Positions 1 through 36,008 of a stretch of DNA of 36,008 nucleotides are shown in pieces. The notes under the pieces were generated by a model. It was given only the letters and a program-made list of their open reading frames with translations. It was not told where the DNA came from and did not search any database. Location of the stretch: the IMG/VR virus record IMGVR_UViG_3300024518_003797, positions 1 through 36,008 of that record. The stretch is one strand, 5' to 3'. How positions within the stretch are numbered: the stretch's first letter is position 1; every line of letters begins with the position of its first letter. Source of the DNA: a virus. The position numbers and the translations under genes were made by a program.

Positions 1-142
1 GTCCATGTCCCTGTCCTTGACCTTGACCCTGACCCTGACCATGACCTTGACCATGACCCTGACCTTGACCTTGACCCTGACCCTGACCATGACCCTGACC
101 ATGACCTTGACCCTGACCATGACCCTGACCTTGACCTTGACC
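1..142. repeat. Left-end hexamer tandem array (C-N-TGAC)
   Basis: About 23 tandem hexamers of the form CCTGAC, CATGAC or CTTGAC fill the left end. Only the second base varies, apart from the two outermost units (positions 4-15), which end in GTC instead of GAC. Writing units by their second base, positions 28-75 spell C-C-A-T-A-C-T-T, an eight-unit (48-bp) higher-order repeat that also occurs twice in the right-end array at 35859-35954. Both arrays have the same strand orientation, so they are direct and not inverted repeats. The edge at 142-148 coincides with a possible start codon on the minus strand. Confidence 0.97.
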
Positions 143-148
143 TTTCAT
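1..148 (-). CDS. Gly-Gln/Gly-His repeat protein, N-terminal part, runs off the left end
   Basis: On the minus strand an ATG at 148-146 is preceded by AAGGG six bases upstream, and by an in-frame stop at 158-160, only 25 bases after the preceding gene ends at 173. It opens M-K and then reads Gly-Gln or Gly-His dipeptides to the edge of the window. The variable array base is the third base of the CAG/CAA (Gln) or CAT (His) codon, and the GAC-to-GTC change of the outermost units is GGT to GGA, still Gly. All three minus-strand frames of this array lack stops, so openness alone proves nothing; the start site and third-position variation are the support. If the molecule closes on itself, the frame continues into the right-end array and the helix-turn-helix gene at 35775. 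No function can be assigned; a Gly/Gln/His low-complexity segment could be a flexible or self-associating region. Confidence 0.45.
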   Translation of the reverse strand, partial: MKGQGQGQGHGQGQGHGQGHGQGQGQGQGQGHGQGHGQGQGQGQGQGHG

Positions 149-172
149 AGCCAGCCCTTAATATTGCTGAAT

Positions 173-484
173 TCACTTTGTTTCACCACAAACAGAACTA
201 ACTAAAGTCATATCCACTACTGACCCACGTCCGATGATTACATCATTTTTAAAAAGTTCATTTTCTTTTGCTTTGCTGGTATCTCGTAGATATTCATTAA
301 ATCTTCCACTGTCAGCAACCCATGAAGCGTCACTAAACACAAGTTCTTGCCCGTGTACAGCTTTTAACTTTCCAGCAATTGCCATTGTAACAGTTCTCAC
401 ATGGTAGAAAGAACCAACATTAAACGGGTGTGAATTGTCACCACCCTGTAATAAATCTTTTAAGTCTTTAAATGAAATTTCCAT
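173..484 (-). CDS. Conserved-type small hypothetical protein (103 aa)
   Basis: This 103-residue soluble protein starts at an ATG with a GGAG site eight bases upstream. The centre has the pattern H-P-F-N-V-G-x-x-Y-x-V-R-T-V-T followed by E-L-V-F-x-D-A-S-W-V-A-D-S-G-R-F, and the end carries an I-I-G-R-G-S-V-V-D segment. From memory this resembles a small beta-rich protein common in phages and metagenomic contigs, but I cannot attach a function. It is the last conventional gene of the leftward unit before the hexamer array and lies 55 bases after the metalloprotein gene. A real gene is likely because of the ribosome binding site, the operon position and protein-like composition. Confidence 0.8.
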   Translation of the reverse strand: MEISFKDLKDLLQGGDNSHPFNVGSFYHVRTVTMAIAGKLKAVHGQELVFSDASWVADSGRFNEYLRDTSKAKENELFKNDVIIGRGSVVDMTLVSSVCGETK

Positions 485-1712: not shown

Positions 1713-1992
1713 TTGCCACCATTGCCTTATAAGCTGGATCAATCGTCATTTTGGACTCGTAGAGAGCTAATAAAGCATCTTTTTCAGAGAAGCCAAGAAT
1801 TCGCCCAAAAGCCTTTTCCAGTGCCTTGTCTTTTAACTGACATTCGTAGCCATTATCGTTTGTGACACTCCAAATAAATTCTCCAGGTGTAACAACACAA
1901 ACCTTTTTGGCCAAATAGAAATGTCCAGTTGTAAATTTAGAATTTCGCGGAACTTCCACACATTCTAATATCAAAAGATCTGTTTTTTTCAT
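1693..1992 (-). CDS. Hypothetical protein (99 aa)
   Basis: A 99-residue protein with a beta-rich first half (short strands around I-L-E-C-V-E-V and T-G-H-F-Y-L-A-K-K-V) and a helical C-terminal half. No domain recognised. The ATG overlaps the stop of the 40-residue membrane protein gene by three bases, and the 3' end overlaps the HNH gene by 20 bases, so it is part of the coupled leftward unit. Confidence 0.75.
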   Translation of the reverse strand: MKKTDLLILECVEVPRNSKFTTGHFYLAKKVCVVTPGEFIWSVTNDNGYECQLKDKALEKAFGRILGFSEKDALLALYESKMTIDPAYKAMVANEKTHH

Positions 1993-2111
1993 TTAATGAT
2001 TCCTAATACCAATAAAATAATAAAACTTACCATAAAGGCAAAGCCTATTTCTAAGGTCATTTTTACGCACTCTATAAGGTCGTGGCTTACTATGTAAGGA
2101 TAATTTTCCAT
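1989..2111 (-). CDS. Small single-span membrane protein (40 aa)
   Basis: A 40-residue reading frame linking two neighbours exactly: its ATG (2111-2109) shares one base with the upstream stop (TAATG), and its TGA stop overlaps the ATG of the next gene. Residues about 20-39 form a hydrophobic helix (M-T-L-E-I-G-F-A-F-M-V-S-F-I-I-L-L-V-L-G), after a polar N-terminus. This looks like a small inner-membrane protein of unknown role. The precise fit between neighbours and the clean hydrophobic segment argue that it is real. Confidence 0.72.
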   Translation of the reverse strand: MENYPYIVSHDLIECVKMTLEIGFAFMVSFIILLVLGIIK

Positions 2112-2305
2112 TAGAGTTCCCCTAAATATTCCCACTGTTCAATCTGATACAAGTGTTCTGGAAGACGATATCTATTAATAATCCAAAATCCAGTTTTTAT
2201 ATTCACCCTAGCAATATCCTTAAACCTATTGTCCTCAAGTGTGATAGTGGCCAATTCACCACTTGATCTCAAATAAACACCTAATCTAACTTTTTTGTGT
2301 TCCAT
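2111..2305 (-). CDS. Hypothetical protein (64 aa), first gene of the left leftward unit
   Basis: A 64-residue beta-rich protein (K-V-R-L-G-V-Y-L-R-S and a G-F-W-I-I-N-R-Y-R-L-P segment) with no recognised family. The start is secure: a strong AAGGAGG site lies five bases upstream. It is the first gene of the leftward unit, directly downstream of the palindrome and DnaA boxes at 2323-2404. A regulatory role is possible from its position only. Confidence 0.78.
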   Translation of the reverse strand: MEHKKVRLGVYLRSSGELATITLEDNRFKDIARVNIKTGFWIINRYRLPEHLYQIEQWEYLGEL

Positions 2306-2322
2306 ATATCCTCCTTTTCGTG

Positions 2323-2333
2323 ATTGTTACAAT
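2323..2333. promoter_or_regulatory. Operator-like 11-bp palindrome
   Basis: ATTGT-N-ACAAT is a perfect palindrome around one central base. It lies 18 bases upstream of the first leftward gene and overlaps the place where a leftward transcript would begin. This geometry is typical of a repressor site, but no matching protein is identified. A convincing -10 element could not be placed next to it. Confidence 0.4.
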
Positions 2334-2375
2334 ATTTGTCAATAAAGTAAAAGAGTTTTTCTGCTTTTAGTGGAA

Positions 2376-2404
2376 TGTGGATAACTTTCTAAAAATGTGG
2401 ATAA
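2376..2404 (-). promoter_or_regulatory. Two perfect DnaA boxes, candidate origin
   Basis: TTATCCACA occurs twice on the minus strand (2384-2376 and 2404-2396), exactly 20 bp apart. The direct repeat extends to 13 bases (AATGTGGATAACT). TTATCCACA is the high-affinity E. coli DnaA box. Next to it, 2420-2460 is a very AT-rich stretch that could unwind. The pair sits between divergent transcription units, and no phage replication initiator, helicase or primase is visible, so host DnaA-dependent initiation is a reasonable inference. Confidence 0.6.
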
Positions 2405-2459
2405 CTAACTTAAATGGCTGTTTTTATTAAGCCTTTTTGCTTTTAAAATAAAAGAAAAA

Positions 2460-19346: not shown

Positions 19347-20555
19347 TTAGTCTAGTTGAATTCTTGCGTTAAACCCTGGGGCTCTACAGCCTAAGTTTCT
19401 GTATCCGCCGATTCTACCTTCAACACCATCTTCCGAAGTTTCACGAAGGATTCTTAGGGAGTCAGTAGTGATAAAGTCAACGGGCTCATCAATTGAATGA
19501 AGTTTCCACATATCCATTTGGATTAGGTAGGCCACGTCAGCCGTACAGTTTTGGTCGGCAATTACCGTGACGGGTCCTTTTGGAGAGGCAAGCTTGATTC
19601 CTGAGAAACCGATTCCAACATCACTCATTACAGTATTATAAACAACTTTCGAGCCTAGAGCGTTTTCTAGTTCTTCCCATTTGTCATAAGTAGTAAATAG
19701 GTGTGAAGGACGACCACCCTCTCTACAAGTTCTTGTAATTCCTTTTACGAAAGCTTCTTCGATAGGTAATCCAGTTCCGTCAATTCTTAAACCGGCCAAT
19801 CTTGTAGGATCCGCAGATCTATCAACTCCAAAGAAGTTGTCACCGGCAGTTGGTGCCGTTCCTGGTAGCCATGCTTCCAATCCAGCTTCCGCCAAATCAT
19901 AATCACCTTCTACAAACATATAATCGGTAATGGCAGCAGCAGCAACACCGGCAACAATGTTACCCGTAAAAGTTACTGTTCCAGCATCCCTGTCAACTTC
20001 AAGAACTGTCAGAGTACCGGCTCTTACAGCACCACCACCATCGGCGGCGGAAAGAACAATTGACATACCTACTTCAAAGTTTGTCACGTCTTCGGCTTCT
20101 GATAATGTTGCAATTGGAGTCGCAACACCTACGTTATTCAGTCGGCCCATTTTACCAGATCCAGAACCATATAAACCAATTGCTAGGTTTCTAGTACCGG
20201 CTTGTAAAGCCCCGTCGGCTTCTGTCGTAAGAGCTTGCATAAATGCGCCGCGATTACTTCTTGAAGCTTTCAGAGTTTCATTGTCTACTGAGAAAAGAGA
20301 ATAATCTTTAACCCTTGTTAGGTTAAATTTCTTGTGTAAGGAATTACCCTTATTTGATTGGGCCGTTGCGAAAGTTCTTGATCTACCTTGTGGGTTTCCG
20401 TAAGTAATTGGAATAGGTAGCGTGTCGCCTTCCCATGATTTGTTTTTTGGTAATAGCGCCAGAAAAGGATTATCCTTATACACTGTATTTTGTACAGCGT
20501 CGTCAGTATAAAATTCCTTCAAAGCGGCGTCGAAATTGGTCATATTAAGAGACAT
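19347..20555 (-). CDS. Major capsid protein
   Basis: A 402-residue protein of the HK97-type capsid plan. The N-terminus (F-D-A-A-L-K-E-F-Y-T-D-D-A-V-Q-N-T-V-Y-K) leads to N-P-F-L-A-L-L-P, then a G-R-S-R-T-F-A-T-A-Q E-loop-like stretch and D-Y-S-L-F-S-V-D. The core has an R-T-C-R-E-G-G-R-P-S-H-L-F-T-T segment and ends in a Y-R-N-L-G-C-R-A-P-G strand. The G-A-V-R-A-G-T-L-T-V-L-E-V segment (about 180-215) looks like an inserted beta domain. Position after portal and scaffold, the strong AAAGGA site before the ATG and the following terminator fit a highly expressed capsid protein. Confidence 0.9.
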   Translation of the reverse strand: MSLNMTNFDAALKEFYTDDAVQNTVYKDNPFLALLPKNKSWEGDTLPIPITYGNPQGRSRTFATAQSNKGNSLHKKFNLTRVKDYSLFSVDNETLKASRSNRGAFMQALTTEADGALQAGTRNLAIGLYGSGSGKMGRLNNVGVATPIATLSEAEDVTNFEVGMSIVLSAADGGGAVRAGTLTVLEVDRDAGTVTFTGNIVAGVAAAAITDYMFVEGDYDLAEAGLEAWLPGTAPTAGDNFFGVDRSADPTRLAGLRIDGTGLPIEEAFVKGITRTCREGGRPSHLFTTYDKWEELENALGSKVVYNTVMSDVGIGFSGIKLASPKGPVTVIADQNCTADVAYLIQMDMWKLHSIDEPVDFITTDSLRILRETSEDGVEGRIGGYRNLGCRAPGFNARIQLD

Positions 20556-20574
20556 TTTTCAATCCTTTGAAATA

Positions 20575-20590
20575 GACCTTCTTAAAGGTC
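20575..20590 (-). other. Hairpin ahead of the capsid gene start
   Basis: GACCTT and AAGGTC form a perfect six-pair hairpin with a four-base loop. It overlaps the scaffold stop codon and lies just upstream of the capsid ribosome binding site. There is no U-tract. It could protect the 5' end of a processed capsid mRNA or uncouple translation. Confidence 0.45.
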
Positions 20591-21416
20591 AGTTAAGTTT
20601 GCTAATTGCATTCGCCATGCGCTCCTGATCCGTCAGTGGACGTGAAGAAGCTTGAGCAGGGCGACCCTGATTAAATGTGTTATTTGTAAGGGTGTCTGGC
20701 ATTCTTAACTGCGCCGATTGATTTAACTCTGGGTTTTCTCTTGAAAGGGTTCGTTCACCTTGATGTTGTGGTGCGCCGAGTTCCCTTTGGAGAAGTGACC
20801 TTACTTTTTCCGATTTTAACAGATCTTGTAATTGCGTCAAAGCATTTTTTTCTGCCATGACAGCTGCTTGCTCTATTGGGAGGATTTTTCCACTCTTTTT
20901 ATAGACTTCTTCAATCACTCCATAGACGTCTTTTTCGTTCCCAAATGCCAGTAAAGCTTCATAACTCTCTACCTTGCTGTCTAAATGGGTCTTGATTTGA
21001 GAAAGATGCTCCTGCTCCGCTCTGCTTGTGCTGGCCTCTCTTTCTTTTTCCGCCCTTGTTTTCTCTTGATCTGCCCTGATTTCAGACATAATTTGAGCTT
21101 TCATCTCTTCTTGAGTTAATTGCTTGGGTTCTTCTTGGCCTAATTCATGGTTTACAATGTCTTCATAAGAATAACCAAAAGCATCCAAAGCACCTCTAGG
21201 GTCTTGGATATTGTCATACTTGCCCATGCGATCATTTAATTCTTTTTCCCGCTGGTTTAATTCCTGCGTTTTTTGCCATAAATCCATTTCCTTTCTGGTA
21301 ACGGCGGCAAATTGATCTGGCGCTTGTGCTGGTTCCGCTTGTGGCGCTGGATCCTGTGTTGGTAATTGTCCCGGTAATACTTGTGCTGGCTCTTGACTCG
21401 TAGCTAAATTTTCCAT
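20589..21416 (-). CDS. Putative scaffolding protein
   Basis: A 275-residue, very hydrophilic protein with no cysteine. The N-terminus is Pro/Gln/Ala-rich and unstructured (Q-A-E-P-A-Q-A-P). Long charged helices and coiled coil cover about residues 40-215 (E-L-N-Q-R-E-K-E-L-N-D-R; A-E-K-E-R-E-A). The C-terminus has a polar tail. This composition and its position between portal and capsid genes are typical of internal scaffolds that shape the procapsid and leave it before packaging. Confidence 0.78.
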   Translation of the reverse strand: MENLATSQEPAQVLPGQLPTQDPAPQAEPAQAPDQFAAVTRKEMDLWQKTQELNQREKELNDRMGKYDNIQDPRGALDAFGYSYEDIVNHELGQEEPKQLTQEEMKAQIMSEIRADQEKTRAEKEREASTSRAEQEHLSQIKTHLDSKVESYEALLAFGNEKDVYGVIEEVYKKSGKILPIEQAAVMAEKNALTQLQDLLKSEKVRSLLQRELGAPQHQGERTLSRENPELNQSAQLRMPDTLTNNTFNQGRPAQASSRPLTDQERMANAISKLN

Positions 21417-21435
21417 TTCTTAACTCCATGGTTCT

Positions 21436-23274
21436 TTATTGTTGCGGCAACGGAATTGCCTGTGCTTGTGTTAATTGTGCGGGGTCTAATGGTCCTGCGT
21501 TTTCTGGCATCACTGGCGCATCGCTTATCAAAGGAGGCGTCGGCAAGGCCGCTGGGTCCGGCTCTGGTGGCTGTGTAAGAGCAAAGGCATCTGATACCCA
21601 TCTTGTCAGAAGCTCTAATTTATTTCTATCTACATTCATCCTTTTATACTTAAGGTAGGAAGCTTGCATGAGTTCCATTCCAAGCTGTAGATCCTGCAAT
21701 GGCTCAGGCGGCAAGTATTCGCCTTTTTGAAGCATATGATCGATTGTGTTTAAAATATCATCTTGTCGGGCATTTTCTAAAGAAGTGACAGAAGCTAGAT
21801 CTGGATAATCTAATAATCTCCTGGCATCCTTTGGATCTAATAGCCCCGCTGTGGTCATTTCGATAGTAGCAGCAAGCTTTCCGGCTGGTGTGCTAGGTAA
21901 TAAATTGACTGGATGAAGTTTAAGAACATACGCACTTTCCTCAAGATCAACGTCTTTCCATTTAATCTTTTGAACAGCGGCTTCACTTAATGCCATCATC
22001 TCCCAATCTTCACCAGACGAGTTTTGTTCCTTGGCCAGATCAATAATTTTAGCAGTACACCTTAAGACGAAATCTTCCCAGGATTGCCCGACTAGAGCAA
22101 ATCTCTCTGATTCAACGTCTGAAAATTCTCTAATAGCTTTCCCGGAATCTAATCCGTCAGGCTTTTTGGATTGTGCTGAAAGGGTAGAGATCCCAATAAC
22201 TTCAAATGCCTTTTCGTATAAATATTGTAATTGAATAAAGTTTTCTGGTGGTACGGAATTTAGTGCCATTAATTGTGGCGGAATCCCTCTATATGTTCCA
22301 ATTCGCCCAATTTCGTTATTCATCTGGGCCTCTATAACTTCCGAGCCTTCTTCTACCCAATATGTAGGGACTGAGCATAGACGCATAGAGTCTTGGATTG
22401 TTCTTAAAATTCTATTGATTTCAATTTGGATAGGGGCAATTTCACGGGCAAAGCCTCTGCCATGGAAGCCTAAGATATTTTTACGAAGCCTTAGGTCTTC
22501 ATAAGGATAGTAAGCCTTCTTCCATTCTTCATCTAATAAGGTTGCGCCCTCAATGGTTATTGTGTGCCTTGATTCTGATCCCTTGATGAATTCAGGCTTG
22601 AACGACTCGACAACCTGGACCAAATCACCGTCTGTCGCTTGGACCATAAAGAGGTGTTGAGGAGATTTTGCGCTTTCTATTTGTGCTTCAAACTTAGGGT
22701 AAAGCTCTTTTAGAGTGGTTTTAGCAACATATCGGACTTCGTGAAGATTTGAAGGAAGGTTTCCCTCAATCACTTCGTCTTCGTCAAACTTAATTGCTTC
22801 CGTGAATATGTTTTCGCATTTGATTTCTTTGTCAGTTGGGCAGATATACCATTTCAGCCAGCCAGTATCGACAAGGCAGGCTCTTAAGAATTCAGACTTC
22901 GCCTTTTCATAGAATTCTGTCCTATAAAAGACACCATCAACGAATCTTTCAAGGTTCTTCGCTTTCGTTTGAAGAGAAAAGCTCCCATCATCTGTTAAAA
23001 ATCTAGGCTTAGGCTTGTTTTTAGCTATTTTTGCCGCTGCGGTATCACAGGCCGATTGGACAACATTTAAAGTGAGTCGATTATCTGTTAAGTCTGCGTT
23101 AAATCTTCCCGACTTAAATCCTAGTAGATTGATGTTCCCGTACATCTTGAGATGTTTCAGGTTAGATTTAGACCTATTTGCGTACCGAGTTTCCAACATT
23201 TTCACATGCTCAAAAACTGCTTCGTGTACACTATGCTTTGCTTTCCACCAAAAATCCTTGCCCATTGTCTTCAT
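21436..23274 (-). CDS. Portal protein
   Basis: A 612-residue portal of the podoviral P22/T7-like size class. The N-terminal region has R-L-T-L-N-V-V-Q-S-A-C-D-T-A-A-A-K-I-A-K-N-K-P-type residues (about 66-92), the usual wing signature. The centre has L-R-L-R-K-N-I-L-G-F-H-G-R-G and Q-I-E-I-N-R-I-L-R-T-I-Q. A long C-terminal helix follows, with a Pro/Ala-rich tail at 575-612. Twelve copies would form the DNA channel at one capsid vertex. It lies downstream of terminase and upstream of scaffold. Confidence 0.88.
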   Translation of the reverse strand: MKTMGKDFWWKAKHSVHEAVFEHVKMLETRYANRSKSNLKHLKMYGNINLLGFKSGRFNADLTDNRLTLNVVQSACDTAAAKIAKNKPKPRFLTDDGSFSLQTKAKNLERFVDGVFYRTEFYEKAKSEFLRACLVDTGWLKWYICPTDKEIKCENIFTEAIKFDEDEVIEGNLPSNLHEVRYVAKTTLKELYPKFEAQIESAKSPQHLFMVQATDGDLVQVVESFKPEFIKGSESRHTITIEGATLLDEEWKKAYYPYEDLRLRKNILGFHGRGFAREIAPIQIEINRILRTIQDSMRLCSVPTYWVEEGSEVIEAQMNNEIGRIGTYRGIPPQLMALNSVPPENFIQLQYLYEKAFEVIGISTLSAQSKKPDGLDSGKAIREFSDVESERFALVGQSWEDFVLRCTAKIIDLAKEQNSSGEDWEMMALSEAAVQKIKWKDVDLEESAYVLKLHPVNLLPSTPAGKLAATIEMTTAGLLDPKDARRLLDYPDLASVTSLENARQDDILNTIDHMLQKGEYLPPEPLQDLQLGMELMQASYLKYKRMNVDRNKLELLTRWVSDAFALTQPPEPDPAALPTPPLISDAPVMPENAGPLDPAQLTQAQAIPLPQQ

Positions 23275-34397: not shown

Positions 34398-34529
34398 TTA
34401 TACACCATCTCCATATTCGAGATCGATAAGAAGCTCGGCGTAGTGAATAACCTTTTTTAAGTCTTCTTTGCCATTTTTGCTTTTATATCTACATGCGTAT
34501 TTTACAATATTACCTTGACAGAAATTCAA
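34398..34529 (-). CDS. DUF3310-like protein, short form (43 aa)
   Basis: Reads L-N-F-C-Q-G-N-I-V-K-Y-A-C-R-Y, then K-N-G-K-E-D-L-K-K-V-I-H-Y, matching the conserved C-terminal motif of the phage DUF3310 family (function unknown). The start assumed is TTG at 34529, overlapping the upstream stop by four bases (TTGA), which would give only the C-terminal half. In the same frame the upstream sequence continues Q-T-I-E-F-T-H-K-N-N back to a TAA, without ATG or GTG. The gene is either shortened or uses a rare start. Confidence 0.6.
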   Translation of the reverse strand: MNFCQGNIVKYACRYKSKNGKEDLKKVIHYAELLIDLEYGDGV

Positions 34530-35020
34530 GTTGTTTTTATGTGTAAATTCGATAGTTTGTCTAAAACCTTAGAAAGAAGGCATAATTCTGCAGTTGTTAG
34601 TGATTCGTAAAAATGAAAAAATTTTCCACTTTCGCTGTTAATACCCAATAAAACAAAACCTGTCCACCCTAGTTTTTTCTTCACTAAATCCCTAATTATT
34701 TGGCTTTCATCTTTTACTTCTTTTTTTTCTGTTTCTTCTGTTTCTTCTTTTTTTTCTACCCCTTCCACGTTTGTACTCAACTTGTCGTAAGCTAAAAGCA
34801 TCCACCCTTGATATGCAAAGCCGGACTCTTTATCCAAATAATACAAATCTTGTCTGAAAGATGTTTCGTCTACGGGAATGTCTGCAAGCCATTTTCTCAT
34901 TTTCCTCGTCAGAATACCCTTAAACTCAGAATGTGTTATATCCCCAGTTTCTTCCGATAAAACAACTTTCTTCCCATACTCTTTTTCCATTTCTTTAAAT
35001 GGCTTAATTGTAAATAACAT
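34526..35020 (-). CDS. Hypothetical protein (164 aa)
   Basis: A 164-residue acidic protein with a Glu/Lys low-complexity linker near residues 85-105 (K-K-E-E-T-E-E-T-E-K-K-E). A folded C-terminal half has L-G-W-T-G-F-V-L-L-G-I-N. No family recognised. The ATG at 35020 has GGAG six bases upstream; an earlier in-frame start at 35050 lies in the hairpin leader. It follows the nested hairpin at 35041-35090. Confidence 0.65.
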   Translation of the reverse strand: MLFTIKPFKEMEKEYGKKVVLSEETGDITHSEFKGILTRKMRKWLADIPVDETSFRQDLYYLDKESGFAYQGWMLLAYDKLSTNVEGVEKKEETEETEKKEVKDESQIIRDLVKKKLGWTGFVLLGINSESGKFFHFYESLTTAELCLLSKVLDKLSNLHIKTT

Positions 35021-35040
35021 TTTTTTCTCCAAAACCGAAT

Positions 35041-35090
35041 ACCCACCCAACTAAATCGCGATAGTAGTTGGTTAATTAAATCAGGTGGGT
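35041..35090 (-). other. Nested hairpin in the leader between two genes
   Basis: ACCCACC (35041-35047) pairs with GGTGGGT (35084-35090), and CAACTA (35048-35053) pairs with TAGTTG (35065-35070). On the minus-strand mRNA this makes a 13-pair stem interrupted by one bulge, lying 21 bases before the ATG at 35020. No U-tract follows, so it is more likely a translation or stability element than a terminator. Confidence 0.5.
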
Positions 35091-35490: not shown

Positions 35491-35775
35491 CTATAAATAG
35501 TCCCTTCTACATTTACAAATAAAACTAGGACTATAACCATACTTCCTGGCCGCCTCTGTGCAGGCCATTCCTTCCGACTTAATGGCAAGAATTTCTCTGC
35601 CTTTATCGCTTAAATTCCGCGCCCTTCTAGTGCTGTTAATCCTATTGGCCATACCGATTTCTTTTGCAATTAAATGGACATATTGCCTGGTTACGCCAAA
35701 TCTATCTGCTATTTCTTGGTATGTTAAAGCTTTTTTTCTTTTTAAAAGTTTTTTAATTTCTTGTTTTAAAGTCAT
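35491..35775 (-). CDS. Double helix-turn-helix DNA-binding protein; frame open into the hexamer array
   Basis: A 94-residue basic protein with two helix-turn-helix motifs: L-T-Y-Q-E-I-A-D-R-F-G-V-T-R-Q-Y-V at about 17-33, and A-C-T-E-A-A-R-K-Y-G-Y-S-P-S-F-I at 71-86. It should bind DNA, possibly as a transcription regulator of the phage. GAGGGG lies six bases before the ATG at 35775, so it can start there. The same frame, however, stays open upstream through H-E-G-K-K and the whole Gly-Gln/Gly-His array (35776 to about 35990), and the array-start ATG at 148 would join this frame if the ends are linked. The gene may therefore be the C-terminal domain of a longer repeat protein. Confidence 0.8.
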   Translation of the reverse strand: MTLKQEIKKLLKRKKALTYQEIADRFGVTRQYVHLIAKEIGMANRINSTRRARNLSDKGREILAIKSEGMACTEAARKYGYSPSFICKCRRDYL

Positions 35776-35786
35776 CTTTTTCCCCT

Positions 35787-36008
35787 CATGACCCTGACCC
35801 TGACCATGACCTTGACCCTGACCATGACCCTGACCATGACCCTGACCTTGACCTTGACCCTGACCCTGACCATGACCTTGACCATGACCCTGACCTTGAC
35901 CTTGACCCTGACCCTGACCATGACCTTGACCATGACCCTGACCTTGACCTTGACCCTGACCTTGACCTTGACCCTGACCATCACCTACCCCCTAACCCTC
36001 ACCCTAAC
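35787..36008. repeat. Right-end hexamer tandem array (C-N-TGAC) with degenerate terminus
   Basis: Thirty-seven hexamers. Units 1-32 (35787-35978) are CCTGAC, CATGAC or CTTGAC without exception. Units 13-20 (35859-35906) and 21-28 (35907-35954) are identical 48-bp blocks with second bases C-C-A-T-A-C-T-T, the same block as at 28-75 of the left array. The last five units (35979-36008) are CATCAC, CTACCC, CCTAAC, CCTCAC and CCTAAC, drifting towards a CCCTAA-type repeat. The array ends next to the ribosome binding site of the helix-turn-helix gene. Confidence 0.97.

Follow-up and report, generated by a model that had tools for sequence, protein, structure and literature searches.

The repeat locus

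The window analysed here is the whole of IMG/VR record IMGVR_UViG_3300024518_003797, a linear viral contig of 36,008 bp. An array of the hexamer GGTCAN (TGACCN on the plus strand) is found at both of its ends, at 9-142 and 35787-35985. In the main array, the sixth base of the hexamer is the sole variable base. The array is well supported as a gene for a small protein in which serine alternates with arginine, glycine or tryptophan, read in the frame NGG-TCA. The features of the locus are as follows:

1-16, no strand: left contig end, apparently unreliable, with units reading GGACA instead of GGTCA
1-176, minus strand: repeat gene, 5' part; GTG start at 176-174, leader MNSAILRAGYER, then Ser-[Arg/Gly/Trp] repeats
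15-94 and 35846-35925, minus strand: pair of identical 80-bp stretches within the array, where the contig ends overlap
146-148, minus strand: ATG proposed in the initial annotation, out of frame within the leader of the real gene (GGC TAT GAA)
173-484, minus strand: upstream gene (open reading frame (ORF)), family A, 103 aa, predicted Sm/LSm fold; stop TGA at 175-173
35491-35775, minus strand: separate downstream helix-turn-helix (HTH) gene (ORF), 94 aa; Pfam HTH_23, E=4.9e-8
35776-35785, minus strand: spacer GGGGAAAAAG, Shine-Dalgarno-like, from the stop of the repeat gene to the HTH start
35786-36008, minus strand: repeat gene, 3' part; array proper at 35787-35985, stop TGA at 35788-35786
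35980-36008, no strand: right contig end, apparently unreliable; TTAGGG-like, with in-frame stops in two frames

The exact 80 bp shared by 15-94 and 35846-35925 suggest that the genome is circular or permuted and that the assembly was cut open inside its one repeat array. The first ~16 and last ~29 bases of the window look like unreliable contig sequence, and the latter contain TAG codons in the GGT-CAN frame and TGA codons in the NGG-TCA frame. If the ends are closed on the exact overlap, the repeat protein is ~73 aa long; the next-best overlap gives 89 aa. Its GTG start overlaps the TGA stop of the upstream gene (GTGA), and its leader fits the family consensus MNxAILRxG(F/Y)(D/E).

The initial annotation had the array begin at a minus-strand ATG at 148 with an AAGGG site and continue into the HTH domain. 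The ATG (148-146) and an upstream TAAGGG do exist, but this is not the start of the gene. Nor is there a fusion: the NGG-TCA frame stops at TGA 35788-35786, GGGGAAAAAG follows, and the HTH gene has its own ATG, so it is separate from the repeat gene. Used directly as a search query, the HTH protein found weak partial relatives only.

Elsewhere in the window, the capsid and portal genes at 19347-23274 weakly resemble those of phage SU10 (Pfam SU10_MCP, E=1e-4; SU10_portal, E=1e-6; neither reaches the curated cut-off). A 27-bp T-rich tandem repeat at 34705-34757 lies within a minus-strand ORF (34526-35050), where it encodes a Glu/Lys-rich stretch.

The upstream gene

The upstream protein of the window represents family A; a second family, B, is homologous to it (hhalign 95%, E 1.7e-8). 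AlphaFold2 models were made for both from natural alignments. The family A model, based on 78 natural homologues, has a pLDDT of 94.3 and a pTM of 0.79; family B reaches a pLDDT of 93.2. With either model, Sm/LSm proteins account for almost all of the 50 best Foldseek matches in the PDB (E about 1e-3 to 3e-2, probability about 1.0, TM (target) up to 0.79). The Sm fold consists of an N-terminal helix and a five-stranded bent barrel, and the family A model has a helix followed by strands. Small SH3-like barrels look alike, and the Foldseek E-values are modest; the predicted Sm/LSm fold is thus well supported but not proven.

Two sequence motifs of the fold were looked for. The Sm1 motif has a Gly in strand 2 and Asp..Asn in loop 3, where the Asp/Asn contacts RNA; the Sm2 motif is an Arg-Gly before strand 5. 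In family A the Sm1-like Gly is invariant (78/78) and the Asp/Asn positions are not conserved, while an Sm2-like Arg-Gly, at GRG(S/A)(I/V)(I/V)D, is common (R in 63/78, G in 54/78). Family B has an invariant Gly and a near-invariant GVN; it lacks the RG of Sm2 and has IESFG. Profiles of both families found nothing convincing in a sequence search of the PDB. Against Pfam and PHROGs, the upstream family gave at most isolated weak matches (E above 0.005), none of them convincing.

The gene pair in related phages

Viral contigs were searched with the upstream protein only, for families A and B. The scans gave 365 (A) and 155 (B) encoding stretches, and the analysis used the best 79 and 80 loci, 159 in all. 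A run of S-x of at least eight residues lies downstream in 74/78 (A) and 74/76 (B) of the loci with enough downstream DNA. This makes 148 of the 159 loci, against 77 of 1590 control windows taken from the same loci; for runs of at least 14 residues the figures are 128/159 and 19/1590 (1.2%). Most arrays fetched by the upstream protein have few GGTCA units or none. Two of the exceptions were read by eye from their sequences: one (L153) has Thr (ACT) in place of Ser downstream of the Sm-like gene, with the same Trp/Gly/Arg partners, and the other (L186) has a degraded Ser-rich version.

Codons and gene offsets were counted on 114 distinct repeat ORFs. In 64 of the 114 pairs the offset of the repeat gene is -4, an ATGA-type overlap; in many others the gene starts at +0, +1, +2, +6, +7 or +9, with its own start codon. 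The protein has a median length of 71 aa (complete ORFs of at least 45 aa), with a leader of 10-13 residues before the repeats. It is acid-poor, with a mean net charge of about +10.6 and about 12% Trp. Several loci (L007, L017, L023, L095, L108, L301) have more than one repeat gene, either in tandem or dispersed; in one fetched locus as many as seven long reading frames of Ser-[R/G/W] were counted.

Phage genomes seem to be broken by assemblers at the array. Twenty-five of the 159 loci end less than 450 nt past the Sm-like gene, at or near the array, and in one (L104) both contig ends are within it. The repeat gene is probably under-reported because so many contigs end there.

The reading frame of the array

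The initial annotation took the array as the coding sequence of a repeat protein. The conserved Ser-[R/G/W] of the relatives agrees with this. The product it proposed, a Gly-Gln/His repeat in the frame GGT-CAN, is not the one that is conserved. In the window this frame is indeed free of stops through the array and in frame with the ATG of the HTH gene, and it stays open when the contig ends are closed; the window alone therefore cannot decide the frame, and it is the sequences of the relatives that decide it. Variation at the third codon position, read earlier as a sign of selection on the protein, is uninformative. It arises automatically, because a single variable base in a hexamer is the wobble base in exactly one frame per strand. 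Of the two frames in which this is so, TGA-CCN is closed, which leaves GGT-CAN.

A scan for GGTCAN arrays gave at least 85 distinct arrays; it was biased to one codon choice and was replaced by the scans with the upstream protein. Among 85 such arrays, the GGT-CAN frame has 27 stops in 14, from units such as GGTTAG and GGTTAA. The Ser frame has six stops in four, of which at least one (L072) is a different kind of repeat. The flanks of many of the 85 share the leader MNxAILRTG(F/Y)(D/E) in the frame NGG-TCA. Most relatives use a Ser codon other than TCA, and their GGT-CAN frame reads Gly-Arg, Gly-Leu or Gly-Ala; nothing is conserved in it, because its content shifts with the Ser codon of the phage. 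The NGG-Ser frame is always Ser-[R/G/W], and the other frames of the relatives' arrays encode nothing constant. No open GGT-CAN frame running through the array into an HTH gene is conserved among the relatives.

A Val-Lys/Met/Arg frame (GTC-ANG) was also considered and rejected. It is stop-free in most GGTCAN arrays; its content follows the Ser codon, and it has stops in the TCT phages. Genuine Gly-Gln repeat ORFs are found at L013:5985-6488 and in L086 (array 1911-2456, minus strand), and are unrelated to the gene of the window. They resemble its array in having GGTCAN-type hexamers but differ in that they are coding in the other frame, with synonymous changes of the Gly codon and no His.

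Codon usage and evolution of the array

The dominant Ser codon is TCG in 48 of the 114 arrays, TCT in 30, AGC in 18, TCA in 16 and AGT in two. Within arrays it is more than 90% uniform in 94 of the 114. Mapped on trees of the Sm-like protein, the Ser codon has changed at least 22 (A) and 23 (B) times; at least eight (A) and seven (B) of these changes are between the TCN and AGY boxes. The residues between the serines are G (858), R (766) and W (714), together 92%. Their codons are NGG in 90% of cases, and GGA, GGT and GGC make up 38 of the 858 Gly codons. Units beginning with AG or GA are preceded by T in 0/94 cases against 27 expected (28.8%), counted over related arrays which are not independent, so that the binomial P value looks stronger than it is. 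A T before such units would give TAG or TGA; the Ser frame therefore has no such stop.

A single NGG letter is rare (<5%) in 88 of 104 arrays, C alone in 47 and A alone in 41; the rare codon is thus always one of the pair that encodes Arg. None of the 104 has lost Trp (TGG), and Gly is rare in three. Such patterns would be expected if selection maintains Ser along with R, G and W while the hexamers evolve in concert, so that a single Ser codon and, in most cases, a single Arg codon come to fill each array. Trp has only the codon TGG, and GGG (Gly) and AGG/CGG (Arg) are one base away from it; concerted evolution may thus explain why partner codons are limited to NGG. The restriction could also reflect selection at the nucleotide level.

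Near-identical relatives differ in array length by 6-bp steps and in the order of R, G and W. This comparison covers 17 pairs, a few of which are the same contig fetched twice and are disregarded; short-read collapse or shuffling of tandem repeats may contribute to the differences. The NGG codons were also considered as a device for peptidyl-tRNA drop-off, which is kept here as an idea only: the papers on drop-off concern the 5' end of genes, and the repeats begin after about 10-13 codons.

Distribution

INPHARED contains two relatives, MW202573 and MW202825, both metagenome-assembled and from Manatee Spring. None were found in PLSDB. Among GTDB genomes, 10 of 11 matches are real relatives, all in metagenome-assembled genomes. 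The repeat is seen in eight of these ten; the other two (L293, L297) are without it at that threshold. One of the GTDB loci (L295) is likely a prophage: its Isosphaeraceae contig is 649 kb long and carries an integrase 15 kb from the locus. A search of the open-access literature on phage Ser-Arg repeats and phage Sm-like proteins returned nothing relevant, and the gene pair was not found described there. The Sm fold is already known; the repeat protein matches no family in Pfam or PHROGs.

Function of the gene pair

The best reading of the locus is a previously undescribed phage pair of a Sm-like and a low-complexity gene, probably acting on RNA; we give this a probability of about 0.6. Translation of the two genes is probably coupled, because in the majority of phages the start of the second gene overlaps the stop of the first, as ATGA or GTGA. 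The mechanism we infer runs as follows. The Sm-like protein would form an RNA-binding ring. The basic, Trp-rich repeat protein would act in trans, in the manner of an RS domain or of the RG-rich tails found on eukaryotic Sm proteins, and may bind RNA and protein multivalently. During infection it could thereby draw the RNA targets of the ring, or factors of the host, together into a ribonucleoprotein assembly.

The closest known systems differ in several respects. Eukaryotic SmB, SmD1 and SmD3 carry RG-rich C-terminal tails (PMC10578488), and so combine the Sm fold, which is predicted here, with an Arg/Gly-rich low-complexity stretch. In contrast, the pair described here is phage-encoded, and its low-complexity part is a separate overlapping gene which alternates with Ser and has Trp as abundant as Arg. 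SR proteins have alternating Ser-Arg stretches in their RS domains together with an RNA-recognition motif; the phage protein consists of its short leader and the repeat, without such a motif, and its partner residues are about a third Gly and a third Trp. Hfq and the archaeal SmAP/LSm proteins are alike in fold, the matches of the predicted models including archaeal 1i8f, 1h64 and 1lnx, and Hfq also has a disordered C-terminal tail (PMC5606850). No sequence similarity to them was detected, however, and both phage families are set apart by C-terminal ends of their own and by their partner gene. Rof, an Sm-like inhibitor of Rho, is likewise a small stand-alone bacterial protein (PMC11018626); it is compared here by fold type alone, and has no repeat partner.

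The example of Rof suggests another possibility. The Sm-like protein may act on a host machine and not as an RNA chaperone, with the repeat protein as its accessory or inhibitor. The small size and predicted Sm fold of the protein are consistent with this, as are neighbouring genes in the relatives, which include endonucleases, single-strand binding proteins, exonucleases, resolvases and terminases. Rof has no counterpart of the repeat protein, however, and we consider this explanation unlikely.

The two genes might also yield one protein. A ribosomal -1 slip at an AAA-TGA overlap would append a Ser-[R/G/W] tail to the Sm domain, an arrangement like that of SmD1 or SmB. A C-terminal Lys before the stop, the frequent ATGA overlap and an A-rich ...AAAAATGA in many pairs could serve such a slip. 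It is improbable, as the many repeat genes at offsets of +0 to +9 have start codons of their own, and the window itself has AAG-TGA and a GTG start. Similarly improbable is a repeat protein that is toxic or membrane-active and is regulated by the Sm-like protein. Its positive charge and Trp content, the coupled gene order and the several copies in some phages would suit a toxin, but the strict alternation of Ser is not amphipathic-helical, and the repeat protein matches no Pfam or PHROG family.

It is very improbable that the array is a DNA or RNA element (iterons, a two-tier G-quadruplex array or a recombination site) and the open frame a by-product. The conservation of GG every six bases and the scarcity of Gly codons other than GGG are what such an element would give. 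However, serine persists whether its codons are TCN or AGY, and none of R, G and W has been dropped, even with four letters open to NGG. One frame avoids stop codons, the positions of starts and stops are gene-like, and L153 exchanges Ser for Thr with its W/G/R partners unchanged. As for a single (Gly-Gln/His)n protein running from ATG 148 into the HTH domain, the open frame in the window is compatible with it, but the model is already contradicted by the relatives, with their stops and shifting residues, by the HTH gene having its own GGGG site and ATG, and by an overlap of upstream and repeat genes that is conserved for the Ser frame only, and it is hardly tenable.

Tentatively, and with more doubt than confidence, we suggest a previously undescribed and widespread phage ribonucleoprotein system, in which a Sm-like ring is joined by a translationally coupled but separately encoded (Ser-[Arg/Gly/Trp])n protein that acts as its exchangeable tail of the RG/RS type and perhaps forms RNA condensates. 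If so, these condensates would perhaps take over host RNA, and the system would be a phage parallel to the spliceosomal Sm core with its RG tails; the hypervariable order of its repeats would evolve by concerted turnover of hexamers.

Well over a hundred uncultivated phages carry the gene pair, which also occurs in diverse bacteria known from metagenome-assembled genomes and falls convincingly into no Pfam or PHROG family. The Sm fold is a core fold of RNA biology. A predicted Sm-fold protein paired with a strictly alternating Ser-[Arg/Gly/Trp] protein is a testable candidate for phage control of RNA. The array may also be considered a natural experiment, in which a low-complexity protein pattern is kept while the DNA that encodes it is constantly rebuilt in six-base units.
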